A stretch of 51,605 bases of DNA. It comes from a virus. Location of the stretch: positions 1-51,605 of the IMG/VR virus record IMGVR_UViG_3300046533_000736, one strand, 5' to 3'. Under the pieces are notes generated by a model, which worked only from the letters and a program-made list of their open reading frames with translations, did not search any database and was not told the origin of the DNA. Made by a program: the position numbers and the translations under genes. Shown piece after piece: positions 2,842 through 48,981 of the stretch (positions within the stretch are counted from its first letter, which is position 1; every line of letters starts with the position of its first letter).

Positions 2842-3056
2842 TGCTGCACATGCTGCGGGGTACCAAGACCACCGTCTATCTCACCGACCTGATGCGACGG
2901 GTCGGCGCGATCGACGCCACTCACGCAGTCAACGAACGAGGGGAAACCGTAATCATCTTCACCCTGCACGACAGGCGTACCAAGAAGCAGGTGCTGCGCA
3001 AATCCGCGCAGTTAATCGACGATCGAAACCAAGAAAGGAATCGAGATGGGCATTAG
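2841..3056 (+). CDS. Hypothetical small basic protein
   Basis: 71 residues, basic, with one predicted strand pair (VIIFTLHDRR) and helical ends. No motif is recognised. GAGGAGAAG just upstream inside the previous gene is the ribosome-binding site. The last ten bases overlap the start of the VWA gene. Function unknown. Confidence 0.55.
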   Translation: MLHMLRGTKTTVYLTDLMRRVGAIDATHAVNERGETVIIFTLHDRRTKKQVLRKSAQLIDDRNQERNRDGH

Positions 3057-4284
3057 CAAATTCGAAATCTCCAAAGGCCGCATCGCGTTGCATTGCGGAT
3101 TCATGCTGCCGCTTCTGTCCAAGCTGAAGTGGATCGACACGCCGCATGTGCCGGTCGCCGGTACCAATGGTAAGCAGGCGTATTACAACGGCCAGCACTT
3201 CGAGGATGAACGCACGTTGGGCGAAACGATCTTCATCATCCTGCATGAGATCGGCCACCCGATGTTCGGGCACATGTCGCGGCTCGGCGGAAGGGATAGG
3301 AAACTCGCGAACATCGCGATGGACTACGCGCTCAATCAGCGCATCTGGGAAATGGTGCAGCAGATGCCCGCGCTGAAGGCCGAGTTGCCCAAGGATGCGC
3401 TGATCGATCACGCACGCTGGGGCGACATGAATTGGGAAGCGATCTACGACGTGCTGCGCAAGGAGCAGCCCGAGATCAGCGAACCGGGCGAAGGCGGCAA
3501 CGGTCAGGGTGGCAAGCAGGGGCAGCAGGGCAAGGGCAAGTACAAGATGTTCGACGAGGTGTATCCCGCAGGGCAGACGCTCGACGAGAACGGCAATCCC
3601 GTGGAAGGCAGCGGTACGAGCGACGAGGAAGCGAACACGCTCGACAAGTCGTGGCTGCTCGCCGCGCAGGCTGCGGCGACGATGGCGAAAGCGCGGGGCA
3701 TCCAAGCGGGGATGCTGGAGGAATTCATCAACGACATGATCAAGCCGAACATCGACTGGAAAACCCAGTTACAGGATCTGATCTCGCGGATCGGTCGGGA
3801 CGAATCCTCATGGCGGCGGTTCAACAAGCGGCACATTCATCGTGAGGCATATCTGCCGGGGATGTACTCGGAGCATTGCGGACCGATCGCGTTCATGCTC
3901 GACACGTCGGGCAGCATGAGCAGTGACGAGGGCAAGGCGGCGCTCGGCGCGATGAACGATATCCTTGAGGACGTGAAGCCGGAACGCATCTACTACGGCC
4001 AGTGCGATACGAAGATGCAGGGTGACGTGGAGGAGTTGACGCCGCAGGATCTGCCGCTGGTCGGGATCGAAATGAAGGGACGCGGCGGCACCGACCTGAA
4101 TCCGATCTTCGCGTGGGCGGTCGAGCATCAGCAGGAGATTGACTGCCTGATCGTGCAGACCGACGGGCACATCAGCGAGATCGCGGGTCACAACATCCCG
4201 TACGGGTTGCCGATGATCTGGATCGTGACGACGGACAACGTGACGCATTGCACGTTCGGGCATGTGATTCAGGTAACGCTGTGA
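3046..4284 (+). CDS. VWA-domain metallopeptidase-like protein (DUF2201 type)
   Basis: 412 residues with two recognisable parts. The N-terminal part carries the zinc-peptidase motif HEIGHPMFGH (H67, E68, H71, H76). A Gly/Gln-rich linker follows at about 145-200. The C-terminal von Willebrand A domain has a MIDAS motif DTSGS (D286, S288, S290), a GGTD segment and a later conserved Asp (QTDGH). This matches the DUF2201 metallopeptidase plus VWA-like arrangement. The family partners MoxR ATPases, and one lies at 117-1220. AAGAAAGGA sits 6 bases before the ATG. The target of the complex is unknown. Confidence 0.88.
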   Translation: MGISKFEISKGRIALHCGFMLPLLSKLKWIDTPHVPVAGTNGKQAYYNGQHFEDERTLGETIFIILHEIGHPMFGHMSRLGGRDRKLANIAMDYALNQRIWEMVQQMPALKAELPKDALIDHARWGDMNWEAIYDVLRKEQPEISEPGEGGNGQGGKQGQQGKGKYKMFDEVYPAGQTLDENGNPVEGSGTSDEEANTLDKSWLLAAQAAATMAKARGIQAGMLEEFINDMIKPNIDWKTQLQDLISRIGRDESSWRRFNKRHIHREAYLPGMYSEHCGPIAFMLDTSGSMSSDEGKAALGAMNDILEDVKPERIYYGQCDTKMQGDVEELTPQDLPLVGIEMKGRGGTDLNPIFAWAVEHQQEIDCLIVQTDGHISEIAGHNIPYGLPMIWIVTTDNVTHCTFGHVIQVTL

Positions 4285-7448: not shown

Positions 7449-8240
7449 ATGGCAGAAGATAATAAGGAAATGACACCATCGCTGGTGATGCGGCGGTTCT
7501 TTCATGCACTCAAGACCGAGAATCTGATGGCTGCGGAACTGCTGGCCACCCACGACAACTTCGACGGCGGCGACGTCGACTACGTTCGCACACTCAACAA
7601 GCTGGTCATCGACGGTCTGTCGACTGCGACAATCGAATGGCTGCTGACCTACGCCAAGGGATGCAATCGCCGGTTCTTTCGTCCCGGCAGCGAGTACGCG
7701 GGACGGCGGCATAATCGCGGCAACAACTGGCGTGGGTGGATCTGCGACATGGTTCGGCGCTGGATGGCCGTAGCAGGTGCGATGACCGATGAACAGCGCC
7801 GCATCGCACGGCTCACCTACGAACTCAATTGGCTGACACCCGGCTACGAATTGATGGATTCGCCGACGGGGCGCGACTGGCTGATGAAGATCAGCACGCC
7901 GGACAAGATCCTGAAGATGGCGCTGACCATGCGTACCCATTGGGAAGGCGGCAAGCACGTCAAGCAGCCGATCTGCTTCGTGCTGGTCGACACGCTGATA
8001 GCCAAGGCTCCGGTCGACCTGTCGAAGTGCGGCGATGAATTGCTGGCGCAGTACAAGAGCGACGATGCTGGACGTGCAGTCGCGCTACGGTTGATCCGGG
8101 CACGCGACACCAACATCCCGATGCCGAAGGAATTCACCGAATTCATTCAGGAAGTCGTCGAGCAGTACAAGTGGTACCAACGTGTAACTCAGGATTTGCC
8201 CACGCTAATCGGAGCCAAGACCCATGAAATCGATCCTTGA
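7449..8240 (+). CDS. Hypothetical helical protein
   Basis: 263 residues, largely helical, with several Trp and Arg residues and no recognised motif. AAGGAG (7436-7441) lies 7 bases before the ATG, the strongest ribosome-binding site in this part. It closes the microprotein array; the next gene begins inside its last codons. Function unknown. Confidence 0.75.
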   Translation: MAEDNKEMTPSLVMRRFFHALKTENLMAAELLATHDNFDGGDVDYVRTLNKLVIDGLSTATIEWLLTYAKGCNRRFFRPGSEYAGRRHNRGNNWRGWICDMVRRWMAVAGAMTDEQRRIARLTYELNWLTPGYELMDSPTGRDWLMKISTPDKILKMALTMRTHWEGGKHVKQPICFVLVDTLIAKAPVDLSKCGDELLAQYKSDDAGRAVALRLIRARDTNIPMPKEFTEFIQEVVEQYKWYQRVTQDLPTLIGAKTHEIDP

Positions 8241-8400
8241 TCCATCCTTCAAGTACGTCGACAGCGCGCACACCAACCTGCGCAAGACGTTCGAGCGTAT
8301 CCGCAGGGAGCAGCAACCGCCCCCACAACCCGCACCTGCGCTGCCGTCGAACGTCGTGCCGCTTTACACTGGTACGCCCGTACCAAACGTAACTCGTTGA
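8224..8400 (+). CDS. Hypothetical small Pro-rich protein
   Basis: 58 residues. A helical front (NLRKTFERIRREQ) is followed by a Pro/Gln-rich tail. It overlaps the previous gene by 17 bases. No motif is recognised. Confidence 0.5.
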   Translation: MKSILDPSFKYVDSAHTNLRKTFERIRREQQPPPQPAPALPSNVVPLYTGTPVPNVTR

Positions 8401-8409: not shown

Positions 8410-8461
8410 ATGGTCCGTTCGTTGCTTCACCGTGCAAGTCAACCATCCAAGGGAGCCGCCC

Positions 8462-9283
8462 ATGTTTCGAACCGCACTAGCAGTCGCCCTCCTCGGCATC
8501 ACCACGGCAGCGTCCGCAACGCTGTGCGACCTGTCGGCCAGCAAGGATCTGTCCTGCACCATCAACGGCACGATCTTCGCCAACCCGTCGAACCTGACCA
8601 ACATCGGCAGCGGCACCATCTTCCCGTTCCTGACCACGCAGGCGGTCGGCAGCGAGTCGGGCTTCACTACCGACGAACCCGCGCCGAGTCAACTGCCGCT
8701 CGACGACAAGCGCGACAACAGCAATACGTTCACCAACACGTTCGCGGATCAGAACCTCGGCACAGTGACGGTCAACGGCATCACCTACTTCGCGTTCTTC
8801 CTCGACACCAACGAGCCGGACGGCGGCACCGATCCGCTGATCTCGCTCGACAGCTTCGCCATCTTCGACACCGGCAGCACCTCGGCCTTCACCAACACCA
8901 CCAAGACCGAAACACTGGCGCAACTGGATGCCACGCCGGGCTTCAGCCTGATCTACAGCCTCGACACGCTGACGCAGGACAACACCGTGCTGCTCGACTC
9001 GTCGCTGTTCAAAGGCAGCGGCCTTGGCTTCGACATGACGATGTTGATCCCGGTATCGCTGTTCAACGGAGTCAACCCCGGCGATCGCCTCGTCGTCACC
9101 ACGCAGTTCGGCCTGAGTGGCGGCACGATCACGGGCGCTGGCACGGCGGACGGCTTCGAGGAGTGGAACGCTGCGGTCGGTGCGGTACCCCCGCCGCCGC
9201 CCCCGCCGATCCCGGAACCTGCTACGCTTGCGCTGTTGGGTATCGGCCTCATGGGTCTGTTCGGCGCACGACGCTTTCGCTGA
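8462..9283 (+). CDS. PEP-CTERM sorting-signal protein (exported)
   Basis: 273 residues. A clean signal peptide (MFRTALAVALLGITTAASA) leads into a Thr/Ser/Asp-rich beta domain of about 210 residues with few charged helices. A Pro run is followed by the C-terminal signal: IPEPATLALLG, a hydrophobic helix and a basic end, GARRFR. This is a textbook PEP-CTERM tripartite tail, recognised in Gram-negative bacteria by exosortase. The protein is expected to be exported and handled at the cell envelope or in exopolysaccharide. The ATG at 8462 starts the signal peptide directly. A strong terminator follows, so it looks like a self-contained accessory (moron-like) unit. Confidence 0.9.
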   Translation: MFRTALAVALLGITTAASATLCDLSASKDLSCTINGTIFANPSNLTNIGSGTIFPFLTTQAVGSESGFTTDEPAPSQLPLDDKRDNSNTFTNTFADQNLGTVTVNGITYFAFFLDTNEPDGGTDPLISLDSFAIFDTGSTSAFTNTTKTETLAQLDATPGFSLIYSLDTLTQDNTVLLDSSLFKGSGLGFDMTMLIPVSLFNGVNPGDRLVVTTQFGLSGGTITGAGTADGFEEWNAAVGAVPPPPPPPIPEPATLALLGIGLMGLFGARRFR

Positions 9284-9304
9284 TCTTCCTGTCTCTGTCC
9301 TTGC

Positions 9305-9333
9305 GCCGGGGTCCTCATGCCCCGGCTTTTTTT
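9305..9333 (+). terminator. Rho-independent terminator after the PEP-CTERM gene
   Basis: GCCGGGG (9305-9311) pairs with CCCCGGC (9320-9326) over an 8-base loop and is followed by seven T. It ends transcription just after the PEP-CTERM gene and before microprotein Q. Confidence 0.9.
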
Positions 9334-9343
9334 CGTGGGTCAT

Positions 9344-9361: not shown

Positions 9362-9465
9362 GGCAGGTCTACGAAAACTGGTATGCACTTATCGTCAACG
9401 GGCATCACGTCTGGACCGGCACCCGCGATGACTGCATCCACAACATGCGGCAACTATTCAAATGA
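9346..9465 (+). CDS. Array-type microprotein Q, before the polymerase
   Basis: 39 residues. Strand NIVIRQVYEN, second strand WYALIVNGHHVW, then a helix DDCIHNMRQLF. It has the compact plan of the array at 4281-7447 but stands 1.9 kb away. It ends on the ATGA that begins the polymerase gene, so the two are translationally coupled. Confidence 0.65.
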   Translation: MNIVIRQVYENWYALIVNGHHVWTGTRDDCIHNMRQLFK

Positions 9466-9477
9466 ACATCGTCATTC
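9460..9477 (+). repeat. 18-base direct repeat, copy 2 (polymerase start)
   Basis: Second copy of AAATGAACATCGTCATTC, 116 bases after the first. Confidence 0.9.
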
Positions 9478-11330
9478 TCGATTTCGAAACTTTCTGGGAT
9501 CAGGATTACACGCTGTCGAAGATCAGCACCGAGCAGTACGTGCGCGACCCTCGCTTCGAAGTGATCGGCGTTTCCATCAAACAAGGACCGGAGGCTGCGC
9601 AATGGTTCTCGGACCCGCTGGAAGTACACACCGCGCTGAACGCTATCAATTGGAGCGAGTCAGCATTACTGGCACACAATACCTACTTCGATGGTGCGAT
9701 TCTGGGATGGCACTTCGGTATTTATCCCGCGTTCTATCTGGACACGATGTCGATGGCACGCCCGCGATTCAACATGACGTGCGGTACGTCATTAGCCGCA
9801 CTTTCGAAAGCATTTGAGATCGGCGTCAAGGGCATCGACGCGGTCACGTTCAAGGGCTACCGCCGTGCCGACTTCACTGCCCACGATCTCGCGCAGTACG
9901 GACGCTACTGCTGCAACGATGTCGAGCTTACGTGGCGGCTGTTCCAGAAATTGCGCGAGCAGGGCGAACACGAATTCCACCTGATCAATCAGTACATCAA
10001 GCTGTTCGTCGAGCCGCTGCTGCAAGTGGACGACCTGCTGCTGCAGGATCATCTGCTCGAAGTGCAAGCGTATCGCGAAGCGGGCCTGAACATGGCCGCG
10101 TACGAACTCGGCATCGAACCCGAGAAGTTGAAGCAGGACGTCGTGAGCAACGAGAAATTTGCCAAGCTGCTCGAATCGATCGGCGTAGATCCGCCGAAAA
10201 AGATCAGTCCGACCACCGGCAAGGTCACGTGGGCATTCAACAAGACCGATCAGGGTTTCATCGAAATGCAGGAGGAAGCCGAGAACGATCCCGACACGCT
10301 GATCAAGACGCTGATCGGCGCGCGGGTCGAGAACAAGAGCAGCATCGAGGAAACCCGTACCAACCGGCTGATCGGCGTAGCATCGCGTGGCATGTTGCCG
10401 GTCTATCTCGGACACTACCAAGCGCACACCGGGCGTGCGGGCGGCGGCGACATGATCAACCTGCAGAACCTGCCGGTGCGCGACACCCGCTACGAGTACC
10501 CGATCCGGCAGGCGCTGTGCGCGCCGCCCGACCATGAGTGCATCAGCGCCGATCTGGCGCAGATCGAAGCGCGCATCCTCGCGTGGCTGGCCGGGCAGCA
10601 GGACGTCGTCGAAGCCTTTCGCGCGTACGACGAGGGACGTGGCCCTGACATCTACTGTGTAACAGCCAGTACCATCTTCGGACGGACGATTACACGGGGG
10701 GACGAGAAGGAACGGATGATCGGCAAGATCGTTCGGCTCGCGCTGGGCTACGGCATGTCGCACGTCAAGTTTGCCCGCGTGGCCAAGGTCAAGCAGCAGG
10801 AAGCCTACGACATCGTCACCCGGCACCGACAGGCGTCGCGGCACATCGTCGACCTGTGGGATCAGGGCAACAGCGCGCTGCGCTGCATCCTTGTGCATGA
10901 GCAGGGGGTGCTGGGCAAGCACGGCGCGCTGCGGGTGAGCAGCGAGGGAATCCACCTGCCGAAGTGGGGCCGGGTGATCCGCTACCCGAACCTGACCCAT
11001 CACGCGCGCTGCGAGGAGCATCCGGCGTTCTACACCTATCAGAACCGCAAGAAGCTGCCGAAGGTGTACGGAGCCAAGGTGATCGAGAATTGCGTGCAGG
11101 CGCTGGCCGGGATCGTCGTGGCCGAGGCATGGCTGCGGCTGGTGGCGCGCGGCCTGACGGTGGTATTGCAGGTCCATGATGAGCTAGTATGCGTAGCACA
11201 CAAGAACGACGTCGATCGGTGGCTGCCGGTGATCAAGGAAGAAATGACCCGCGTTCCCGACTGGGCACCCGGCCTGCCGGTCGCCTGTACCATCGGCCAC
11301 GACCCGCGCTATGGGTTGGCGAAAGGGTAA
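9462..11330 (+). CDS. Family A DNA polymerase with 3'-5' exonuclease
   Basis: 622 residues. The N-terminal proofreading domain has Exo I LDFET (D7, E9), an Exo II AHNTYFD segment and an Exo III YCCNDVE. The polymerase domain has motif A SADLAQIEAR (D364), motif B RMIGKIVRLALGYG (R418, K422) and motif C LQVHDE (H572, D573, E574). There is no 5'-3' exonuclease domain, as in T7-type polymerases. It should replicate the phage DNA with the primase-helicase and SSB encoded downstream. The start overlaps the microprotein Q stop. Confidence 0.96.
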   Translation: MNIVILDFETFWDQDYTLSKISTEQYVRDPRFEVIGVSIKQGPEAAQWFSDPLEVHTALNAINWSESALLAHNTYFDGAILGWHFGIYPAFYLDTMSMARPRFNMTCGTSLAALSKAFEIGVKGIDAVTFKGYRRADFTAHDLAQYGRYCCNDVELTWRLFQKLREQGEHEFHLINQYIKLFVEPLLQVDDLLLQDHLLEVQAYREAGLNMAAYELGIEPEKLKQDVVSNEKFAKLLESIGVDPPKKISPTTGKVTWAFNKTDQGFIEMQEEAENDPDTLIKTLIGARVENKSSIEETRTNRLIGVASRGMLPVYLGHYQAHTGRAGGGDMINLQNLPVRDTRYEYPIRQALCAPPDHECISADLAQIEARILAWLAGQQDVVEAFRAYDEGRGPDIYCVTASTIFGRTITRGDEKERMIGKIVRLALGYGMSHVKFARVAKVKQQEAYDIVTRHRQASRHIVDLWDQGNSALRCILVHEQGVLGKHGALRVSSEGIHLPKWGRVIRYPNLTHHARCEEHPAFYTYQNRKKLPKVYGAKVIENCVQALAGIVVAEAWLRLVARGLTVVLQVHDELVCVAHKNDVDRWLPVIKEEMTRVPDWAPGLPVACTIGHDPRYGLAKG

Positions 11331-21392: not shown

Positions 21393-21592
21393 CGCATTCG
21401 CAGTACCGGGATGGAAATCCCACCAAACAGTACCCCTAGTAATACGATCACCGCGATCAATCCCAGCACCACCATGACCACCGTCTTGAACGGATCCGGT
21501 AGTGGGATCTGCCCAACGACCCAGTAGATCAGGTAGAAAACGAGGGCGAGTACGACAACGGTAATCAGCAGACCGATTAGTCCTTCCATCAT
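21389..21592 (-). CDS. Two-helix membrane protein, possible holin
   Basis: 67 residues, two hydrophobic helices (about 4-26 and 37-58) joined by QIPLPDPFK, with a basic end (VLRMR). Size and topology fit a small holin. The sequence also resembles a bacterial family of small membrane proteins of unknown function (Thivi_2564 type), so the holin role is inferred. It is the last minus-strand gene, after the giant polyvalent protein, with which it overlaps by 4 bases. Confidence 0.6.
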   Translation of the reverse strand: MMEGLIGLLITVVVLALVFYLIYWVVGQIPLPDPFKTVVMVVLGLIAVIVLLGVLFGGISIPVLRMR

Positions 21593-24500
21593 CCACCACC
21601 TTTCCCAGTGATGTGGTAATACTGCCGCAGCGCCTGCTGCTGCAGTTGCTGCTTCTGCGTGTTGATCGCCAGATCATCCGCCTGCGGACGCGATTTGAAA
21701 TCCTTGTACAGCGTGCTGATCTGCTTGTCGGTATCGGCGAACAACTTCTGCAGCGCGGCGAGCTTCTGCGTATCAGGCGTCGGCGTGCCGCGCCGCAACG
21801 CCTGCGGATTGGTCGCGTAGTATTTCGCTTCGAGCGTTTCCTGCTTGGCGAGATTGTAGTTGTCGTCGTCGGCGAAGCTCGTCGCCGTGGTGTCGAAACG
21901 CTTCTCGATCGGACGCAGCAGGTCAGCCCCACCACGCGTGTCAACCTGTCCCGGATACGACGGCGGCTTGCCTGACCCCAGCACGTCCGACCAGTAGTTC
22001 GTGTACCCCGTAGGATCAAACGCCGCTGCGATGTACTTCAGTTGTGCCGGTGCCACATCAGCACCCGTCGTCTGGTAGATCGCCTTCGCCGCATTCACCG
22101 CCAGCGTGTTCTCGTTCTTCGAGTACATTTCGCGCAGCGGCATCCCCGCCTTCGCATGGGCATCCTTGTTCTGCACGATCTCGCTGCCGAACGTATTCTG
22201 GTTCTTGCTGATGTCGTAGACCGGCAGCAGCACCGAGGGCGTGATCGTGCGCAGCAGGTAATCCGACAGGTTCGACTTGTAGCCGGTGATGTCCTGCTGC
22301 GGCGTGTTCAGCGGCGACACCGCCTGTGCGACGACGCGTAGCATCCGCGACCACATCTGGTCCGGAGTCGACTGCGTGTCACCCCAGATACCGTCGCCGA
22401 TCGTGTTGCCCAGCGCGTAGAACGGGGCCAGTTCCTGCGGGATCGGGTAGCCCGCCGCACCTTCGTGGAAGATGAGCATCGAGTCGCGCTTGTTCTGCTG
22501 GATCTTGCCGTACTTCGATTTGCCGTCCTTATCCTTGTCGCTGTCCCGATAGCCTATCGCCGCAGCCATCAGACCCAATCCCATCAGTCCCACCGTCGCC
22601 GCCTGCGTATACGGATTCCTCTCGTTGACCAGTTTGTCGTAGTACGTTGCCAGCCCCTGAATCTTCGCGTTGGCGAACAGGTACAGCGGTCCCAGCGGCA
22701 CCGTGCCGCGCGTTTCGAAATTGACCGTGGTGGTTTTTGCCGCGATCGCCGCGCGATGTTCCGCCGCCTGCGGCGTCATGCCCTGCGCCAGATGATGCTC
22801 GTTCACCGTGTTGAAAATGGCGAGCCGGGTACCCGATTCAAGCGCCTGCGAAAACGCCATCAGCATTTCGCGCGCCTGCCTGCCGCGCTGCTTCAGCGTG
22901 TCCGTGGTCGACGGACTGAACTTGCCGTTCACCGCAGCAGTGATCGGATCCAGCCCTGCGTACGCCTGCTGTGTCACCAGCCCACCGGCTTCCTTCGCCT
23001 GCTTGTAGATCCCCTTCGCTTCCTTGCCAAACGCTTCGGCGAACGAACTGTAGAACGCCGATCCCCACACCTGCGGCGACGCCAGATGCATGAAGAAGCG
23101 CGCCCGCGAGTATTCTTTCGACAACTGCACCGCCGTCGTGCTGATGTCACGCAGCAGGTTGAACACCGCGAAGCCGGGGTTCGCCGCCGTCTTGCCCAGC
23201 GCCATGATGTGCGACATCGTCGCCACCGCACCGATCGCCGCCGTCTTGGCTGACTGCTTCTGCGCACCACTAAACGACGACAACGAATTGAAGATCGCGT
23301 CGTCGGCGATGCTCATGTACACCCGCTGGCCGTCACCGACGAACACCTGCACCGCACGGGGATCGAGCGGACTGACCGTGTCGATGCCGTAACCCAGCGT
23401 GAAATCGCGCGGGTCGATCTTGATCTTGGTCTGCGTCGGCGTCGAGAACTTGAACACCGGCTTGCCGTTCTCGTCGACGATATTGAACATCTTCGACGCA
23501 AGCTCGTAGACGATGCCACTGATGTTGTTCTGCTCGCCGCGCATCACGGTGCGGATCATGTTCTCGCGGATGCGCTGGAACGGCACTGTGCCCATTGCGG
23601 TGGCACCTGTCGCGGTCTTGCCGCTGACCGTGCGGTCGCCAATCTGGATCGGCACCCAGTATTTGTAGGTACCCTTGATCCGGTCGACGACCGCCTTGGG
23701 CATCAGGTGGTACGCCTGCGCCATGTCGAGCGTCGCATCGCCCATCTGCTTGTACAGCATGGCGAGCTTTTCCACTTCGGCGAAATACGCAGGCGAATTT
23801 TTGCGCAAGTTGTCGTTGGACGTCTTGGCCGCAAGCTGGTCGGATTTCAGCTTGTCGAGCGCCTGCTTCGCCTCGCCGGTTTTCCAGTCGGTGTTCGGAT
23901 CAAGCATCTGCTGCTTGTGCGCCGCGCGCTCCTCGAAGTGCAGATTGGTCACATCCTTGTCGATTTCCTCCTGCGTCAGGCCGAACTTCTTTTCCATCGA
24001 CGCGCCCTGATCGGCGATCGGCTTGGCGTACTTTTGCTCCTGCTCCGCGATCTTGTTCGCCGCGTGGGTATTGCGCAGCACCGCCTGATCGTCGACCTTC
24101 AGTTCATCAGGCAGGTTCTCGTTGTGCGCGGCCATTACCGCCTTGACCTCGCGTCCCAGATCCTGCGCTCCCGCGTAGCGATTCTGGAAATAGCTCTGCA
24201 GCATGATCTTCTGCGCGCCGCCACCCAAGATCTTCGGTACCCACTTCGGCACCCGCCCGCGCTTCAGCATCAGGTCCTTCGCCGGACCGCCCGGCGTCAG
24301 CGATGCCGGTGCGGTCTGGTTGTTGGTATTGCTGCCACCACCCCCACCCGTCTGCACCTTCGCCGTGGACGATGCCGGTGCGCTGCGCTGCCCGCTCGCC
24401 CCCAACTGCGCCTGCACCGCTGCCTTGTTCGGGACGTTGGTTTTGACCGCGTTCGGATCGGTGGTGACGTTGTTGGTCGTCGACGTGTAGACGTTCCACG

Positions 24501-27500
24501 TGCCGTCGCTCTGCTCGTAGGCGACGGTCTGCAGGTTGCCTTCGTGGTCGTACCCCGGCAGGAACTCCTTGGTCGCCGTCGGCGGCGTCGGCGTCGCGGG
24601 CTGCGCTTCGTTCAGCGGGGGGATCGACACATGCCCCTGCTCGGTGATCATGTCCTCGACCTGCTGCCGCGTCAGCTTCTGGATGCGTGTCGCCTTGTCC
24701 CCCTTCGGTTCGGCGTGTGTTGCTTCGTAATAGTTGTAGGTTCCGTCCTTATTCTGGTAGGCGATCGCCGTACGCTCGCCGGTTTTCGGGTCCATTCCCG
24801 TCAGCGCATCGCTTGGCGTACCAGCGTATGCCTTGCCGATCTGTTGATTCCGCTCGGCGGCAGCCTCGTTCTGCAGATTGGCCGACAGGCTGAACACGCG
24901 CGAGTCCAGCAGGTCCTCGCCGGTCATCAGCGTTTCCGACAGCACACTGCGCACGCCCAGCAGATTCAGCACGAATTTCTTGAACGCCGACAGCGCGTTG
25001 AACGGACCGTGCGTGCTTTCACCCGGCAGCGGGATCCCGCGCAGGTGATCCTGAAACTTCGGATTGCTGAATGCCTCGGCGACGAATTCCTCGACGCTGT
25101 GGAATCCCCGTGCATCTTGCATACCCTTGCTGTCCGGGTGCGCCTTCGCATACTCGAACAACTGGTTCATCCGCGCCGCAGCGGCCTTCTGCTGGGGGGT
25201 CTGCGGATTGCGTAGCGCCGCCTGCGTCCCCGCATGGGTGACTTCGTGCAGCACCGTGGCGTCGTCGCCCTTGACCGGATCGATGGTGATGCTATTGGTG
25301 CTGGGAACGTATTCGCCCTTGACCTTGCCCGGCAACTCGCCCATCTCGATCGACGCGGTGACACCCACTTCCTGCAGGCGTCCGGCGACCGCGCGCTGCA
25401 GCGCATCGGGTGACGTCGTCTTGAGCGTTTCCAGCGCCGTGTCGACGCTGCCGTTGGTGACCGCGCGAGCGACGTCCGGCGACACGCCGCCACCCCCCGG
25501 CCCGACGTTCTGCAGATCCTCGTCGCTGACTTTCGCCGACGGCCGCCACAATTCGTTGTGATCCGCTTCGACCAGTTGCCACGCTTCGGCACGTGGTACA
25601 CCGTGGTCCTGCTCCAGCGCGTCGACCGTCTGCTTCTTGGCCGCAAGTTCCGCAGCGGCCTTGTTGACAATCTCCGGTGCCGTGGTGCCCTGCGCCTGCA
25701 CCAGCCCCCATGCCTGCGCTCGCGAGAAACCGTACTGGGCGACCAGCGAATCGGTCAGGTCCTGCTGCTGCGTCAGGGTTTCGGTATCTGCTGCAGTGCG
25801 TCGAGTACGCTTGGGGACTGCATCAGCGTTTGACTTACCTCGTCGAAGATTGCCTGTTCGTCGTCCGGTCCCAGTAGCCGCCCGGCCAAGCCCGACCGAT
25901 GCAAGCTCTTGCGCAATTGAGCTAGGACGTACGACACCTGTGGATCCTGCTTCAGCTTTTGTGCGACCGCGACGGAGCCGCTCAGATATTGCGGTGGCAT
26001 TTGAAAGTAACGCTGCGCCGATGCTGCCGGGGGCTGCTGGGGCAAGGGGGGTTGCTGCGGCACGGCCACGCTTGAGCGTGCCGACTTGCGCAGCGTCGGC
26101 GGGGGTCGCGGTCGGCTGGATAGTTTGAGCGTCCGCGACCGCGCTTGCGGCGGTGGGCGTCCCGGTGACGGTCGTTTTAGCGCGTTGGGCATTGGTGGCC
26201 TCGGGTGTTGCCGTCGTAGAACCGCGTTTAAGCGTCGCTACGGCAGGCTTGGCTGGGGTAGGTGCTGGCGGCAGCGGCGGCGCGGTGGCGCGGGCTGCCT
26301 TGTCGGCTGCTGCGACGATGTCGGCGGTTTCCTGCTCTGCGAGGACCAGCAAGCCCAGCATGCGTGGGTCGGCTTGTCCTGCCGCAACCTGCGCGATCAG
26401 CCGGTCGGCGAGGGTGCCCCCGGTCCCGGTGGCAGTGCCGGGGATGGCGGCTGCGGTGGCGACGGCGGCGCGCTGCCGGGAGCCAAGCCCGCCAAGGCCA
26501 CGTCGTCCTCCTGTGCCGAGTCCGGCGAACCCGCCCCCGCCGCCCCCTCCTGCTGCGCCGCCTTCAACAACGAGTCCACCACTGCCTGCGCGTCCTCCTG
26601 CGAGATCTGATCCTGCGGGTGTGCCAAGTTGTGTTCGTGTATCGCCTGCATTACCGCGCTGATCAGCACGTTGATTGGCAGCATTGACGGTGTCCTGAAG
26701 AATTTGGTTGGCGCGCTGGCGGATCGCCGTCTGGTTGCGTTGCGGCAGCGCCTTCAGCGCGTTGTCGACGCGGGTAGTCGATTCGCTGACGACTCGCGGT
26801 GAAAGCGATACCGCAGGTGGCGCACCCGCTGCAGTTTGTTGCTGCACGTGCTGGTCGAGCAGAGCGCCACGCTCGGCTTCCATGTTCGCATGCGCCGCCG
26901 CTGCCTGTGTCGCGTTCTGGATCGCGTCCAGCATAGCGAAGTGCGCCATCCACGCGTCGTTCGCCGCCTGCCGGTCCGCCCCGGTGCGGATGTTGAGGAC
27001 GTTGCGAATGGTGTCCTGTACCGGCGTTTCACCCTGCACCCGTGGTGTGGCTGCAGTCGGCGTACCGGCCAGCGTCGCCTGCGTCTGCTCCAGTGTCTGC
27101 TGGGCGACCAGCCGATCGTGGATGTCCTGCAACCCCTGAATCGTTGCTTCGGCCTGCTTGCCAGTGCGCCCCGACAGATTGTCGATCGCCTGCTGGATCG
27201 CCGCAGGCGCATCCTTCACATCGGTGACGGCATCGATCGGACCCAGTTCCTTTTGGTACTGGTTATCCTTGACCGTTACACCGACTTCCTGCAGTGCTGC
27301 GCGCACCCCCGCGCCGGTCAGCGTTTCACGCAACGCCGCGCGATCTTCCTCGGGCGTCGATTCGTTGGCAGGAACGGCTGCCTGCCGGGCGGCGATCGCC
27401 GCTGCCGTGTTCACCGCAAGCTGGCCTTCGGGAGTGATCGGCGTCGTCACGTCCGGCGTCACAGCAGGCGCGGGTGCAGGTGCTGCCTTCTTCAGCGTGT

Positions 27501-28764
27501 TCTCGAACGGTGCTGCAAGGCCCGCGTGGATGCCACCGGTCAAACCACCGACCACCCCACCGCCCACCGCCTGCTCCAGCGCACCCTGCGTCGTCGGACG
27601 CGTTGGGTCCGCCTGCTGCATCGCGAGATTTTCGGAGATCTGCTGGCCACCCGACTGCAGAAATTCCTCGGGGGTTTCCGCCGCGACGCCCAGCCCGATC
27701 TTCTTGGCAATGCCAGTGATCTCGCCCCGGAAGATCTTGGTCAGTGCGGCGTCGCCGATACCACCGAACGGCAGCGTCGACAGCGCGGTCAGCGCGAACG
27801 CCTTGGTATCTGCATCACTTGCAAGTTTCGTGCGCGCTTCCTTCGGCGTCATCGTCTGCAGCAACTGCTGGTACACCTGCGATTTCTGCAGCGTGTCCTC
27901 GGGCATGTTCATTATTTCCTGCGTGACGCTGCGCCCCGACTGCTCGCCTGCCGTCAGCCCTTCGAACGTGCCACCCGCCAGCCACGCCAGCACCGCCGTG
28001 CCCGCTGCTTCCAGTCCCAGTGCAGGCGCAATCGCCGTCGCCGCAGCAGCAATCGGCAGCGCAGCGGCGGATTCCGGTGCCGACTGCAGCACGCCGCTCG
28101 CATACGAGCGCCAGTCGGTGAATGCCGGTCCGATGTGCGTACCCTGTGCATCCTCGGTCAGCCACTTCTTCTGCTGTGCCGCCAGCATTTCCGGCGTCTG
28201 GTTCGCCGTGTCCTTCTTCATGACGTCATCGAGCGACGGCATGCCGAGAGCCTTGCCGGTGCTTTCGATTCCGCTCGCGACCCAGTCCGGCAGGAACCGC
28301 TGCACCAAGCCACGAAAATCCTGCGCCGCGATGTCGGTGCCGATCTTCAGTTGTCCGGCAAGTTCACCCGGAATGCTCTGCGTAACCGGACGCGGGGAAC
28401 CTGCGACGAAGTTCGCGATCGACTGCTTGACGTTCTCGGGCGGCATGCCCATGTCGGCTAACTGCTTCGGCAGCGCGACGTTCACGTACTCGTCGTACGC
28501 TTCGGTCGGCGACAGGTTCGGCATGATCTGCTGATACTGCTGCAGATTGGTGAATTCGCCCACGGGTGTGCGCGTATCCAGCGGCGGTTCCGGCGCTACC
28601 ATCGGCTGCTGCTGTGCCTGCTGATACTGCTGCACGATGGCCATCATATCCGCCGCGCTCATGCCGCCGAACGGAGCCGTTGCGTCGGTCCCGTAGGGGG
28701 ACGCCGAAGGCAGCGCAAGTGCAGCGCCGTAAGGAGTCGCTGCAGCGCCGAAGTCGTCAGCCAA
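21589..28764 (-). CDS. Giant polyvalent virion protein with metallopeptidase motif
   Basis: 2391 residues, one frame. Residues about 240-285 hold Ala-rich hydrophobic stretches. A Gly/Ala/Pro and Thr-rich middle follows. At 1172-1177 LHEVTH gives a zinc-peptidase HExxH (H1173, E1174, H1177) with a later E (EEFVAEAF). Around 1840-1890 is a segment (MSHIMALGKTAANPGFAVF) typical of LPD38-type large polyvalent proteins. Such proteins ride in the capsid and enter the host with the DNA. In short-tailed phages they act as ejected internal proteins. The targets of the peptidase are unknown. The downstream gene start overlaps its end. Confidence 0.8.
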   Translation of the reverse strand: MADDFGAAATPYGAALALPSASPYGTDATAPFGGMSAADMMAIVQQYQQAQQQPMVAPEPPLDTRTPVGEFTNLQQYQQIMPNLSPTEAYDEYVNVALPKQLADMGMPPENVKQSIANFVAGSPRPVTQSIPGELAGQLKIGTDIAAQDFRGLVQRFLPDWVASGIESTGKALGMPSLDDVMKKDTANQTPEMLAAQQKKWLTEDAQGTHIGPAFTDWRSYASGVLQSAPESAAALPIAAAATAIAPALGLEAAGTAVLAWLAGGTFEGLTAGEQSGRSVTQEIMNMPEDTLQKSQVYQQLLQTMTPKEARTKLASDADTKAFALTALSTLPFGGIGDAALTKIFRGEITGIAKKIGLGVAAETPEEFLQSGGQQISENLAMQQADPTRPTTQGALEQAVGGGVVGGLTGGIHAGLAAPFENTLKKAAPAPAPAVTPDVTTPITPEGQLAVNTAAAIAARQAAVPANESTPEEDRAALRETLTGAGVRAALQEVGVTVKDNQYQKELGPIDAVTDVKDAPAAIQQAIDNLSGRTGKQAEATIQGLQDIHDRLVAQQTLEQTQATLAGTPTAATPRVQGETPVQDTIRNVLNIRTGADRQAANDAWMAHFAMLDAIQNATQAAAAHANMEAERGALLDQHVQQQTAAGAPPAVSLSPRVVSESTTRVDNALKALPQRNQTAIRQRANQILQDTVNAANQRADQRGNAGDTRTQLGTPAGSDLAGGRAGSGGLVVEGGAAGGGGGGGFAGLGTGGRRGLGGLGSRQRAAVATAAAIPGTATGTGGTLADRLIAQVAAGQADPRMLGLLVLAEQETADIVAAADKAARATAPPLPPAPTPAKPAVATLKRGSTTATPEATNAQRAKTTVTGTPTAASAVADAQTIQPTATPADAAQVGTLKRGRAAATPLAPAAPGSIGAALLSNATAISERLRRGRTKAEAGSTGVVRPSSIAQELASVGLGRAATGTGRRTGNLRRGKSNADAVPKRTRRTAADTETLTQQQDLTDSLVAQYGFSRAQAWGLVQAQGTTAPEIVNKAAAELAAKKQTVDALEQDHGVPRAEAWQLVEADHNELWRPSAKVSDEDLQNVGPGGGGVSPDVARAVTNGSVDTALETLKTTSPDALQRAVAGRLQEVGVTASIEMGELPGKVKGEYVPSTNSITIDPVKGDDATVLHEVTHAGTQAALRNPQTPQQKAAAARMNQLFEYAKAHPDSKGMQDARGFHSVEEFVAEAFSNPKFQDHLRGIPLPGESTHGPFNALSAFKKFVLNLLGVRSVLSETLMTGEDLLDSRVFSLSANLQNEAAAERNQQIGKAYAGTPSDALTGMDPKTGERTAIAYQNKDGTYNYYEATHAEPKGDKATRIQKLTRQQVEDMITEQGHVSIPPLNEAQPATPTPPTATKEFLPGYDHEGNLQTVAYEQSDGTWNVYTSTTNNVTTDPNAVKTNVPNKAAVQAQLGASGQRSAPASSTAKVQTGGGGGSNTNNQTAPASLTPGGPAKDLMLKRGRVPKWVPKILGGGAQKIMLQSYFQNRYAGAQDLGREVKAVMAAHNENLPDELKVDDQAVLRNTHAANKIAEQEQKYAKPIADQGASMEKKFGLTQEEIDKDVTNLHFEERAAHKQQMLDPNTDWKTGEAKQALDKLKSDQLAAKTSNDNLRKNSPAYFAEVEKLAMLYKQMGDATLDMAQAYHLMPKAVVDRIKGTYKYWVPIQIGDRTVSGKTATGATAMGTVPFQRIRENMIRTVMRGEQNNISGIVYELASKMFNIVDENGKPVFKFSTPTQTKIKIDPRDFTLGYGIDTVSPLDPRAVQVFVGDGQRVYMSIADDAIFNSLSSFSGAQKQSAKTAAIGAVATMSHIMALGKTAANPGFAVFNLLRDISTTAVQLSKEYSRARFFMHLASPQVWGSAFYSSFAEAFGKEAKGIYKQAKEAGGLVTQQAYAGLDPITAAVNGKFSPSTTDTLKQRGRQAREMLMAFSQALESGTRLAIFNTVNEHHLAQGMTPQAAEHRAAIAAKTTTVNFETRGTVPLGPLYLFANAKIQGLATYYDKLVNERNPYTQAATVGLMGLGLMAAAIGYRDSDKDKDGKSKYGKIQQNKRDSMLIFHEGAAGYPIPQELAPFYALGNTIGDGIWGDTQSTPDQMWSRMLRVVAQAVSPLNTPQQDITGYKSNLSDYLLRTITPSVLLPVYDISKNQNTFGSEIVQNKDAHAKAGMPLREMYSKNENTLAVNAAKAIYQTTGADVAPAQLKYIAAAFDPTGYTNYWSDVLGSGKPPSYPGQVDTRGGADLLRPIEKRFDTTATSFADDDNYNLAKQETLEAKYYATNPQALRRGTPTPDTQKLAALQKLFADTDKQISTLYKDFKSRPQADDLAINTQKQQLQQQALRQYYHITGKGGG

Positions 28765-44823: not shown

Positions 44824-45755
44824 TACCACGGCCCCGTGATGTCGAAGAACAGCATGCCGAGCAGGGTCGAGTTGCTGACCTGTTGCGCCATCACGGTAGT
44901 CCCGCTCAACCCGACCGGATTAGGCACTTGGTCATAAGTCGCCAAAGGCATCGCATGCATGGGCACGAAGGCACCACGGAAGCGCCCACGCACCGGCCCG
45001 CCGGTCAGCGCCTCGGCGATCATCAGCGGCGCTAGATATAGGCCGGAATCCGCCGCGTTGGGATAGATGATGCCGGTCGAACCCAAGCACGCCGTGGTGT
45101 TCAGCGGACTGAGCGAATTCAGCGCCTGCGAGGTGCCGATCTGCGTGTACGAGCGGGCGGCGTAGAAGCCAGCGGTAATCGCCGCCGCAGTGCCGATGGT
45201 TTGCGGCGAGGCGAGTCCGGTTACCACGAAGTTGGGACTGGACCCCGCACCGGCACAGATGAAGGTGTTGTAGGCGTCGGCGCTCTTGTAGGAGGTAAAT
45301 TCCCCGAAGCCGTACGGGTTCCAGTTAAAGCCTGCACCGTTAGCATTCGCAAACAAATAAAACGTCTTGGCATCACCGATCAGCGTCCACGCCCGCGCCA
45401 CCGCATCGAGCGTCTGCGACTTGAGCCAGAAGTTGCCGTTTGCCAACTGTGCAGCAGTCGGGAACAACCCGGTGCCGGTGTTATAGGCCGACATCGTTTC
45501 AAAACCGATGCCGTTAGCCATCCGCGCACCATTGGTGTCGGTGCCGTTGTCAGCCACCTGCAGATAGTGCTGGTTACCACTCGCCGCGCGATACACCGCA
45601 CTGTTCGTCGCGCTGAACGGACGCCCCCAACCAAGCGCCGCCTTACTGCCGTAGCCATTGACGAGGCAGGCATCGAGCAGCGCGACCAGCGACCCGACCG
45701 TACCCGACAATACTGGGGCGCTGGGATCAGTAGACTTGAATACCGTAAGAGCCAT
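44823..45755 (-). CDS. Tail or head fibre paralogue 3
   Basis: 310 residues. STDPSAPVLSGTVG front, LLDACLVNGYGSKAALGWGR core and DITGPW end. The closest pair is with paralogue 2. It overlaps its neighbours by one base each, as in a tandem series. Confidence 0.7.
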   Translation of the reverse strand: MALTVFKSTDPSAPVLSGTVGSLVALLDACLVNGYGSKAALGWGRPFSATNSAVYRAASGNQHYLQVADNGTDTNGARMANGIGFETMSAYNTGTGLFPTAAQLANGNFWLKSQTLDAVARAWTLIGDAKTFYLFANANGAGFNWNPYGFGEFTSYKSADAYNTFICAGAGSSPNFVVTGLASPQTIGTAAAITAGFYAARSYTQIGTSQALNSLSPLNTTACLGSTGIIYPNAADSGLYLAPLMIAEALTGGPVRGRFRGAFVPMHAMPLATYDQVPNPVGLSGTTVMAQQVSNSTLLGMLFFDITGPW

Positions 45756-46510
45756 CAGTACCCCACGGTGTACGAGATGAAGTGATACTTCGACGCCGCA
45801 GCATAGTAGACGACCGCGATGTAATCGGCCACGCTCGCCGCCACACTGGCTGTGAACGATGGGATCGTAGTGCTGAACTTCACGTTCGCAGCGAACGTCA
45901 CCAAACGCCCGCCCACGCTATCCTGCGGCAAGCGCACGCGACATACCTGTCCGTCGTAGCCACCCGTGAAACCAATGACGATGTTGCCGGTCAGCGCACC
46001 GACCAGCGCGACGTCGGTGGTACTGAGATCGATCGTAATCGACGCTGCGTACGGATAGGCAACGACGCGCGCCGTACCCGGCGCTCCAGTTGCTCCCGTT
46101 GTTCCCGCAGCACCTGTCGTGCCCGTCGCACCTACAGGACCGGGCACCGTCGAAGCAGCACCCGTGGAACCGGTCGCACCCGGCGTGCCCGTAGTACCTG
46201 TCGCTCCGGTGGGACCCACTGGGCCGGGAACCGCCGAAGCAGCCCCGGTAGCGCCCGTGGAGCCGGTCGGCCCGACCGGACCGGGAATGGTCGACGCAGC
46301 CCCCGTAGCCCCGGTAGCGCCCGGATACCCCGGTGATCCAGCGGGTCCCGTAGCGCCCGGAGGACCGGGCAAACCACTCTGTCCCGGTTCACCCGGTGGT
46401 CCCGGCTCACCCTGCGGCCCCGTATAGTCGACCTTCGGCGGCGTCGCAACGCAGACGTCCGTCGTGCAGACGTCAGAGGCGTTCGGCTTCGGTGCCCAAG
46501 GGTTCGCCAT
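45755..46510 (-). CDS. Collagen-like virion protein 1
   Basis: 251 residues. A tag front (ANPWAPK ... [14 protein letters not shown]), a Gly-X-Y collagen-like repeat (about 28-145), then a beta C-terminal domain. The tag is shared with 47443 and 48978. It likely trimerises as a fibre. Confidence 0.8.
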
Positions 46511-47443
46511 CTAAACCTCGGTGAACATCATGCCGCTACGGGAACGAACATAAAGCTGGGTGAACACTTGCTGTGACGTAAAACCGTCACCCCCTACACC
46601 CTGCAACCCCGCTACCGTAGCGTAGATCGTTTGCAAGCCCAACTTGGCATTCGCAGCGATGTTGATGGGTCCAGAATAGCCCCGATACGGATCGGCAGGG
46701 ATCGCTGAAGTCCCCGTATTGATGAGCTTCCCCGTCACCCCACCCGGAAACGTCAACCCACCACCTACCGGCAGATCGAACCGTGTCGTGTAGCTGGTCT
46801 GCGGCAGCGGCGTCAACAATTGCATCGTCAACTGCGCGAACTGACCACCCCGAAATACGCCGGGACTGACGTTCGCTGGCGGATTGGTGAGTCTGGTAGT
46901 GATCGATCCTGCGGGTGGTGCCGGATCATTGGGAGCCGTGTAGACCGTCCAATTCAGCGCACCGAAGCTGTATTGGCCATCGCCCCGTGTCGTATCAGCA
47001 TTGATCGTCGAAACCGCGATGCCGACGAACACGTTGCCGTTCGCCAGATCCGTCGATGTGAACCCGCCCTTCTTGAAGGTGTAATCGAGATTGGTTGGAT
47101 TGCCATCACCGGCAATCGTCGCCATCGGATCGTTGCTGTTCGCGCCACTGAATTCCGCGAATGTCTTGAACATGTTGACGTACGCCGTTGCCGTACGCAC
47201 CACGCCCGTCATCGTACCGACATAGAACGCAATCGAACCACTCAGACGGATTCCAGTGATCGCCTGTCCCGGAGGGAGGCCGGGGATCCCCAATTGCCAC
47301 ACACACCATGCCGATCCACCCCCTGCAGGAATAGGACGAGCCATGACTGCTGACGATGCGCTCATCGCCCAACCGACATTGCCATAAGCACTGACACTGT
47401 TGGAGTGGGCACCGGGACTGGCGCTGACGCTGGTGACGGCCAT
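46511..47443 (-). CDS. Beta-rich virion protein
   Basis: 310 residues with no collagen repeats, Gly/Ser/Thr-rich beta sequence throughout. Sits between two collagen-like genes. Probably a fibre or base protein; no family recognised. Confidence 0.6.
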   Translation of the reverse strand: MAVTSVSASPGAHSNSVSAYGNVGWAMSASSAVMARPIPAGGGSAWCVWQLGIPGLPPGQAITGIRLSGSIAFYVGTMTGVVRTATAYVNMFKTFAEFSGANSNDPMATIAGDGNPTNLDYTFKKGGFTSTDLANGNVFVGIAVSTINADTTRGDGQYSFGALNWTVYTAPNDPAPPAGSITTRLTNPPANVSPGVFRGGQFAQLTMQLLTPLPQTSYTTRFDLPVGGGLTFPGGVTGKLINTGTSAIPADPYRGYSGPINIAANAKLGLQTIYATVAGLQGVGGDGFTSQQVFTQLYVRSRSGMMFTEV

Positions 47444-48981
47444 TAGGTGTTATACGGCGTAGTCGTTGCCCAGAACGTGCCACCATCTGTCCACATGCTG
47501 ACGATCGTAGATGTCGTACCCCACACAGGCGAGCCATCCGCCCACTTCACACTCGAAGGCAAATTGATGAGTCCGTTACCGTTCACCAGAATGCGACAGA
47601 TCTGCCCAGCAAGCGCCGTCATGGTAGTGATCGTCGAACCTGCAGCCACACCGAACGTCTGCATCGTACGAAAATCCAGCGCGCCACTGTACGAAGCAAG
47701 ATAGGAATAACCACCACTGACCGCACCAGACTGCACATACCCAGTGCCGTAGATAATCCGCGCACCAAGATTAAGATTGCCACTGCCATCGATTACAAAC
47801 GAATTAGCTTCGTGCAGAATCTTGTACGACACCGCACCGTACGACCAGCCACCAACCTTCCACTGATTGTCAGTGTCAAGGCCGAATATCGCTGCAAAGA
47901 TGCCGGGTCGATGGAACGCCATCATCGACGCATCGCCTGCTGTACCTGCGGCCTGTAATTCCAATTTCGCCGGACCTGCACCCGCCACTGCAGCAATCGT
48001 TCCTGACGAACCCGTCGTAACGATCCGACCACCGCCCGTCACAGTCAGGACGCCGGGATTGACGACGGCACTACTCGCGTTGATCGCACCCGTTGTGACG
48101 CCACCCACCGTCAATACGTCGGTCGCCTTCGCGTAAGTCATCCCGGCGTCGCCACCGAACGCGCCGCTGTCGTTGAACTGCACCTGCGTATTCACACCGC
48201 CCGGTAACGGAGTCGCGCCGGTCGCGCCCGTAACACCCTGCGGACCGATGGGACCCTGAATCCCCGGCGTGCCCTGCGACCCCGGCGCACCCGGCGATCC
48301 CGTCGCCCCTTGGATACCCTGCACGCCGGGAGTGCCCTGCAGACCTGTCGTTCCCGTTGTACCGGTCGCCCCAGTCGCACCCGCCGTCCCGGCAGGCCCC
48401 GCCACCGTCGACGCAGCGCCGGTCGCACCCGTCGCGCCCGCTACACCAGTACCACCCGTAGTACCTGTAGCACCTGCCGTCCCGGTCGAACCGGTAACGC
48501 CCTGCACGCCTTGCGGACCTTGTATGCCGGGCGTGCCTGCTGGACCCTGTGCACCATTCGCGCCGTTCGGACCCTCGATCCCCTGTGGCCCCGTCGCGCC
48601 GGTCGCGCCCACCGGCCCCAGCGGCCCCTGAATCCCCTGAATGCCGATCGGTCCACGCGCGCCATCCGCGCCCGTTGCACCCACCGGACCCACCGATCCC
48701 GTAGCACCTGTCGTCCCCGTCGGACCGGGCACCGTCGAAGCAGCGCCGGTCGCACCCGTCACGCCAATCGGCCCCGCTGGGCCGGGGATGTTCGACACAC
48801 CGGGATCACCCTGCGGACCTTGCGGTCCCGCTGGCCCTTCGGGACCCTGCGGCCCCGGCAAACCGTTCATTCCCGGCGAACCCGGTTCCCCCGGAGGGCC
48901 TTGTGGTCCCGTGTAATCGACGCGCGGTGGCGAACCACCGATGGGATCACAGACCGGGGGTGCCCATGGATTGCTGCTCAT
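47443..48981 (-). CDS. Collagen-like virion protein 2
   Basis: 512 residues. Tag front (SSNPWAPP ... [14 protein letters not shown]), a long Gly-X-Y repeat region (about 20-260), then a beta domain with Ala/Thr/Val strands ([14 protein letters not shown]). Probably a long trimeric fibre. Confidence 0.8.

Follow-up and report, generated by a model that had tools for sequence, protein, structure and literature searches.

The window, the whole 51,605-nt stretch of DNA analyzed here (a 51.6-kb virus record), carries on its plus strand a gene for a 273-residue protein that ends in a PEP-CTERM sorting signal. The record is that of a phage, with matches to family-A DNA polymerase, major head protein, internal virion protein, and primase/helicase. 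An IMG/VR contig of 43 kb, here called G001, is syntenic with the window over most of its length. The features of the locus are the following.

7449-8240, plus strand: flanking phage gene with no family match (59% identity in G001, same order)
8224-8400, plus strand: small gene directly upstream, 58 aa, present in G001
8353-8368, plus strand: PrsR-box-like motif 1, GTCGTGCCGCTTTACA, of the form GTCR-N6-TTTACA, with TTTACA at 8363-8368
8371-8384, no strand: palindrome GGTACGCCCGTACC between the two boxes, imperfect in G001
8411-8426, plus strand: sigma-54 -24(GG)/-12(GC) promoter-like site TGGTCCGTTCGTTGCT, 10 of 12 consensus positions
8450-8455, plus strand: ribosome-binding-site-like AGGGAG, by reading of the sequence
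8462-9283, plus strand: PEP-CTERM protein gene, ATG start, 273 aa
8462-8518, plus strand: signal peptide, residues 1-19, by eye, with similar N-termini in family members
8519-9208, plus strand: exported domain (alignment A9, 20 sequences)
9209-9280, plus strand: PEP-CTERM sorting signal, consisting of PEP, a hydrophobic helix, and RRFR (PF07589, TIGR02595)
9305-9333, plus strand: intrinsic terminator, a stem-loop plus seven T, conserved in G001
9462-11330, plus strand: flanking phage DNA polymerase, family A (81% identity in G001)

An earlier note had read a PEP-CTERM tail in this phage gene, and profile searches bear it out: the tail scores 29.5 bits against Pfam PF07589 (cut-off, 20.7) and 24.5 bits against TIGR02595 (cut-off, 16), which places it among PEP-CTERM signals by both models. 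In a genome-wide PEP-CTERM search the gene is the sole match in the window (E = 9.2e-8), and the controls gave matches in 0 of 14 genomes. The protein opens with the signal-peptide-like N-terminus MFRTALAVALLGITTAASA (judged by eye), and a proline run lies between its exported domain and the tail. Near-invariant in the exported domain across the 20 sequences of alignment A9 are C22/C32, NPxNLxNIGSG, LPLxDKRDNxNTFT, FFLDxNEP, SGLGxD, and DGFEEW. The protein belongs to none of the described PEP-CTERM subfamilies searched (NCBIfam, e.g., PepA NF033554 and THxN NF038125), the best score being 26.1 of 85 bits and confined to the tail; the PepA family itself gives 17.4 bits, its cut-off being 80. 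The predicted structure of the exported domain is mostly beta, at low confidence (mean pLDDT 45 at first and 56 with the 20 sequences). Its fold comparison returns a mixture of unrelated beta proteins (best VIA Z, 4.7), from which we conclude nothing, while comparison with viral structures gives none at E < 0.001, and a sequence search of solved structures gives short matches only (best E, 0.04), taken as chance. A 288-aa open reading frame crossing the gene on the minus strand (8477-9343) is most likely a high-GC shadow.

The gene was also said to have its own strong terminator, and this stands: an 8-bp stem with seven G-C pairs (9305-9326) is followed by seven T, and stem, T-run, and position are all kept in G001. 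The number of terminator-like sites in the region, one found against 1.2 expected, is not above chance.

In G001 the PEP-CTERM gene is 87% identical and lies between the counterparts of both window neighbours. A mis-joined contig, which the earlier note had named as a way for host DNA to appear here, is ruled out by this synteny, with the same gene in the same context. G001 has an insertion before the polymerase gene, and an extra gene, ParB-type by reading (L002:8960-9600), stands there between the PEP-CTERM and DNA polymerase genes. Between window and G001 the PEP-CTERM gene shows a dN/dS of 0.27 and a dS of 0.41, the 15 genes compared spanning 0.05-0.36 and 0.31-0.85, respectively. Judged by this dN/dS, the gene is under purifying selection, and since its dS lies within the range of the 15 genes, it has diverged and travelled with the phage. 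The gene might otherwise be a neutral passenger that was acquired from a host not long ago, along with promoter and terminator, and the unit does resemble a bacterial PEP-CTERM single-gene operon. We disfavor this reading as highly improbable given the constraint on the gene and its ordinary dS, the spread of its family over 18 clusters on viral contigs, and the single bacterial relative found in one genome scan at the sensitivity used.

No exosortase was found in any of the 17 phage records searched, window included, so that both the window phage and G001 lack a match; this supports the proposal that the protein would rely on host machinery. A search for tyrosine integrase found none in the window and a match in 1 of the 16 records searched, so that there is no clear sign of a temperate lifestyle in most of these phages. 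Four more distant relatives by virion protein (G004 to G007), all possibly incomplete records, gave no PEP-CTERM match. Elsewhere in the window, the early arm holds an AAA ATPase gene (108-1220) and a DUF2201 metallopeptidase/VWA-like gene (3046-4284), both kept in G001 and with weak homologues in L073, and several late-arm proteins (45755-50717) contain long collagen-like Gly-X-Y repeats.

Haft et al. 2006 (PMC1569441), in the part of that report available, describe 99 of 167 proteobacterial PEP-CTERM genes as preceded by a motif of 17 nt with TTTACA at its end, followed by a 32-92-nt spacer and a sigma-54 -24(GG)/-12(GC) motif. TTTACA is the 3' end of their motif 1, and the element, which shares its phylogenetic profile with PrsK, PrsR, and PrsT, is confined to proteobacteria there and ties expression to exopolysaccharide state (PMC1569441). 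The putative control region of the window falls within this layout throughout (TTTACA, spacer of 32-92 nt, GG-N10-GC, 23-221 nt to the start), with a spacer of 42 nt and a sigma-54-like site ending 35 nt before the ATG. In G001, motif 1 reads GACGCCCGCCTTTACA, the sigma-54-like site is identical, inside a 25-nt identical block upstream of the gene, and the spacer measures 52 nt, approximately one helical turn more. GTCRN6TTTACA matches once in the window against 0.08 expected. The sigma-54 consensus alone is at chance level in the window (10 matches at two or fewer mismatches against 12 expected), and a sigma-70 promoter scan upstream of the gene found none. The combined pattern TTTACA-N32..92-TGGN8TTGC matches once in each of the two phage genomes, window and G001, both times at the PEP-CTERM gene, and was reached by 1 of 10,000 local shuffles; shuffling of whole genomes reaches it in 11 of 300 cases for the window and 6 of 300 for G001. 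A second, unrelated place in G001 scores 24.0 against 25.4 at the true site.

Bacterial plasmids offer a comparison outside phages. Across six regions taken from 12 matching records (five plasmids; L037 was left out, its gene start lying outside the stretch), GTCR-N6-TTTACA is upstream of three of six PEP-CTERM genes and the full element is at one of these three; in Rhodoferax and Acidithiobacillus this form precedes PEP-CTERM genes on plasmids. Haft et al. found the element only in proteobacteria, as far as the available part of their report goes (PMC1569441), and the upstream element in our sequence therefore points to a proteobacterial host. To that extent the earlier suggestion that the gene hints at a host type stands.

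IMG/VR viral contigs were scanned with GTCR-N6-TTTACA-N40..70-TGGNNCN5TTGC, a pattern that is blind to protein and was derived in part from the site in the window, so that the window's fit is partly circular. At least 120 stretches matched, and 80 loci are listed. A PEP-CTERM gene lies directly downstream in 12 among the 80 loci listed, which is not a rate for the collection; L046 passed the tail regex, was not PEP-CTERM on reading, and was removed, leaving 12 rather than 13. Among the matches listed, all 12 records exceed the TIGR02595 cut-off, and GTCG occurs in 12 of 12 PEP-CTERM loci versus 27 of 68 others. The spacers of the 12, again among the matches listed, are 41, 42, 49, 51 (four times), 61, 62, 63 (twice), and 64 nt and share a helical phase at 10.5 bp (R = 0.80, p approximately 5e-4); those of the other 68 listed loci have none (R = 0.19). 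The spacers of the window (42) and G001 (52) are approximately 1 bp or less off the phase of the 12 loci. For nine of the 12 loci, ten neighbouring genes in all were compared with PHROGs; eight of the nine gave matches, among them endolysin, spanin, CI-like repressor, RecT, anti-repressor, RusA, and virion protein, and the neighbour at L063 has no PHROG match.

Some of these contigs deserve separate mention. L085 adjoins a GMC oxidoreductase-like gene (by reading) and so may represent host DNA, and the genes at the far end of G065 look bacterial on reading. G065 also carries two tandem PEP-CTERM genes (L171:5345-6874) behind a homologue of the small window gene 8224-8400, and this pair adjoins a giant open reading frame distantly similar to window 21589-28764. 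The same small gene is 50% identical over 30 aa to the small gene preceding a PEP-CTERM pair in L117.

A search for the gene in other phages, as had been suggested, recovered it in G001 and its family on 26 IMG/VR contigs besides the window. Locus L106, one of the 12 found with the DNA pattern, contributes a 45% identical homologue, which is the second of two adjacent PEP-CTERM genes on a 32-kb record with major head protein and endolysin matches (G060). A search with an alignment including this homologue recovered 25 viral loci, including G001 and G060, with identities of 42-87%; the distant L010 completes the 26. At 90% identity the family forms 18 clusters, window included and fragment L198 left out. 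Pfam PEP-CTERM matches 19 of the 20 aligned members, and 19 of the 20 are viral. Every clustered member has a signal-peptide-like start and a PEP-type tail, the latter being PEV in L010, and L196 is cut by the contig end. Family genes are found in the company of major head protein, terminase, tail fibre, tail protein, and helicase genes, and 6 of 10 neighbours compared with PHROGs were matched, one of these only to families of unknown function. Apart from G001, the family contigs share limited similarity with window genes, and their backbones differ. In L010 (7986-9524), two adjacent PEP-CTERM-type genes, one of them the distant family member with the PEV tail, adjoin terminase, tail, and endolysin-like genes.

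Using a matrix derived from 11 non-family sites, we detect the control element in 8 of the 18 clusters (window, G001, L177, L180, L189, L191, L192, and L193; spacers, 41-52), either ahead of the gene itself or ahead of the leading gene where two form a cassette, and 335 kb of background contains no match, at a cut-off of 16.5 that was chosen after the scores were seen. The other 10 clusters have no element detectable by this matrix, so that other control exists in the family.

Two further readings can be weighed against these family data. If the product were a virion or infection-stage protein, it would act in the particle or in lysis and not in the envelope of the living host, and the placement of the family gene between major head protein and tail protein genes in L181 (3733-8274) and L187 (12-4552) is in its favor. 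Yet every complete member has a signal-peptide-like start and a PEP-type tail, the gene elsewhere adjoins a helicase or DNA polymerase gene, and that of the window has its own promoter-like element and terminator; this reading strikes us as quite improbable. Alternatively, an abundant phage substrate could act as a decoy, saturating exosortase and blocking the display of the host's own surface proteins, which may include receptors or barriers. Such a role would suit the 93% identity of the tail (residues 244-273) between window and G001, as well as the two adjacent PEP-CTERM genes on one contig (L106/L177), only one of which belongs to the window protein's family. However, the exported domain is also conserved family-wide, more than a decoy would need, and we consider a decoy unlikely.

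The earlier note called a PEP-CTERM gene unusual in a phage. This holds for named phages, with one weak match in 50,697 records, and does not hold for environmental phages, with 25 family loci and at least 12 DNA-pattern loci. The window protein has no match in INPHARED phages or PLSDB plasmids, nor do its relatives L181 (against phages) and L175 (against plasmids), and a tail query with the proline run has none in named phages. The one weak match, obtained with a tail query without the proline run, is a true PEP-CTERM protein: gp179 of Tunturiibacter phage Tunturi_5 (PP885688; L042:1958-2596), annotated as hypothetical, with 19.2 bits against the TIGR02595 cut-off of 16. The main text of the Tunturi_5 paper, in the part available, does not contain the words PEP-CTERM or exosortase (PMC11924767); by the same source, this phage and its host, Tunturiibacter psychrotolerans X4BP1, exist as cultures. 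Like the window phage, Tunturi_5 encodes a PEP-CTERM protein; unlike it, Tunturi_5 is an isolated jumbo phage whose host is an acidobacterium.

The single bacterial relative, found in one genome-contig scan with an early, narrow query, is a Latescibacterota MAG (37% identity). Of 47 Latescibacterota genomes, 15 are positive, 4 over most of the profile and 11 in the C-terminal part only; exosortase is found in three of the four carriers, the fourth being a 1.4-Mb assembly. The Latescibacterota proteins (L006, L029, L030, L031, and L032) are homologues with a PEP-CTERM tail, full-length except for one cut copy (L006), and differ in lying in bacterial genomes and in their 28-42% identity. Upstream of them we find no TTTACA/sigma-54 element, which agrees with what Haft et al. 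report on non-proteobacteria in the part available (PMC1569441).

Taken from its coding region, terminator, conservation, and two-box element, the cassette is built like a bacterial PEP-CTERM transcription unit. We think it probable that it is phage cargo relying on the PrsR/RpoN switch and the exosortase of the host to place a protein in the envelope or exopolysaccharide. In a cell with active PrsK/PrsR, PrsR bound at 8353-8368 would activate sigma-54 RNA polymerase at 8411-8426, and the gene would thus be switched on while the host produces exopolysaccharide. The product would be exported by Sec and anchored in the inner membrane through its tail until host exosortase processes it, and would then end up free in, or bound to, the outer envelope or matrix. 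As few of these phages show signs of being temperate, the gene would be at work in infected cells that produce exopolysaccharide. PEP-CTERM proteins are described as common in soil, sediment, and floc bacteria in the available part of PMC1569441.

What the protein would do once outside is a matter for tentative suggestion. Our leading guess as to its purpose is that it changes the surface of the infected cell such that further phages adsorb less well. Somewhat more doubtful is that it serves not phage exclusion but the matrix, binding exopolysaccharide so that a floc or biofilm retains infected cells or progeny. According to the available part of PMC9850573, pepA of Aquincola tertiaricarbonis is RpoN1-dependent, its overexpression lowers soluble exopolysaccharide, and PepA overexpression in an rpoN1 mutant restored flocs and reduced soluble exopolysaccharide. 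These observations, together with the coupling of the element to exopolysaccharide state (PMC1569441), speak for a matrix factor; the score of 17.4 bits against NF033554, i.e., no family-level homology to PepA, speaks against it. To return to a borrowed switch and exosortase, many environmental phages could conceivably carry PrsR/sigma-54-controlled genes with exosortase-displayed products, by which the exopolysaccharide or biofilm state of the host is read and the cell is only then re-coated, presumably against rival phages; we put this forward as a speculative extension. If it is true, surface effectors of phages that depend on exosortase would form a widespread class.

Phage morons are already known. 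So are PEP-CTERM proteins and their sigma-54 control, the latter from Aquincola pepA in the available part of PMC9850573. A word search of the open-access (PMC) literature found no report of phage-encoded PEP-CTERM genes, which is not proof of absence; the PEP-CTERM genes in PMC12642866, in the part available, belong to Microcystis and not to phage. Within the literature searched, a phage-borne PEP-CTERM family with the host's regulatory element is apparently new. Such a family would provide testable substrates for PEP-CTERM function, link phage infection to exopolysaccharide state, and give a host clue for uncultured phages, namely proteobacteria with PrsK/PrsR, RpoN, and exosortase.

Morons of phages are transcriptionally autonomous cargo genes. 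The cassette appears moron-like in sitting among unrelated phage genes with a promoter-like element and a terminator of its own, both kept in G001, and in being present in G001 with no PEP-CTERM match in the more distant, possibly incomplete relatives. Unlike morons, it comes with no tyrosine integrase found in the window, and its promoter-like element is of the enhancer-dependent sigma-54 type.

With the bacterial PEP-CTERM/exosortase (EpsH) system, as described in the available part of PMC1569441, the gene shares a signal-peptide-like start, a variable exported domain, a PEP-hydrophobic-basic tail, and a single-gene unit, and its TTTACA box, spacer, and sigma-54 site all lie inside the spacing ranges published there. 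It departs from that system in being phage-encoded without an exosortase, with an exported-domain family mainly on viral contigs, and from bacterial PEP-CTERM units in that the window gene has a short intergenic stretch upstream, overlapping a small phage gene. Aquincola pepA, in the accessible portion of its report (PMC9850573), differs in standing on a bacterial chromosome beside prsT and in an exported domain that is of another family by NCBIfam score. It nevertheless shares with the window gene an RpoN-type promoter (there TGGCAC / CTGCTT), a stem-loop terminator, and a PEP-CTERM tail.
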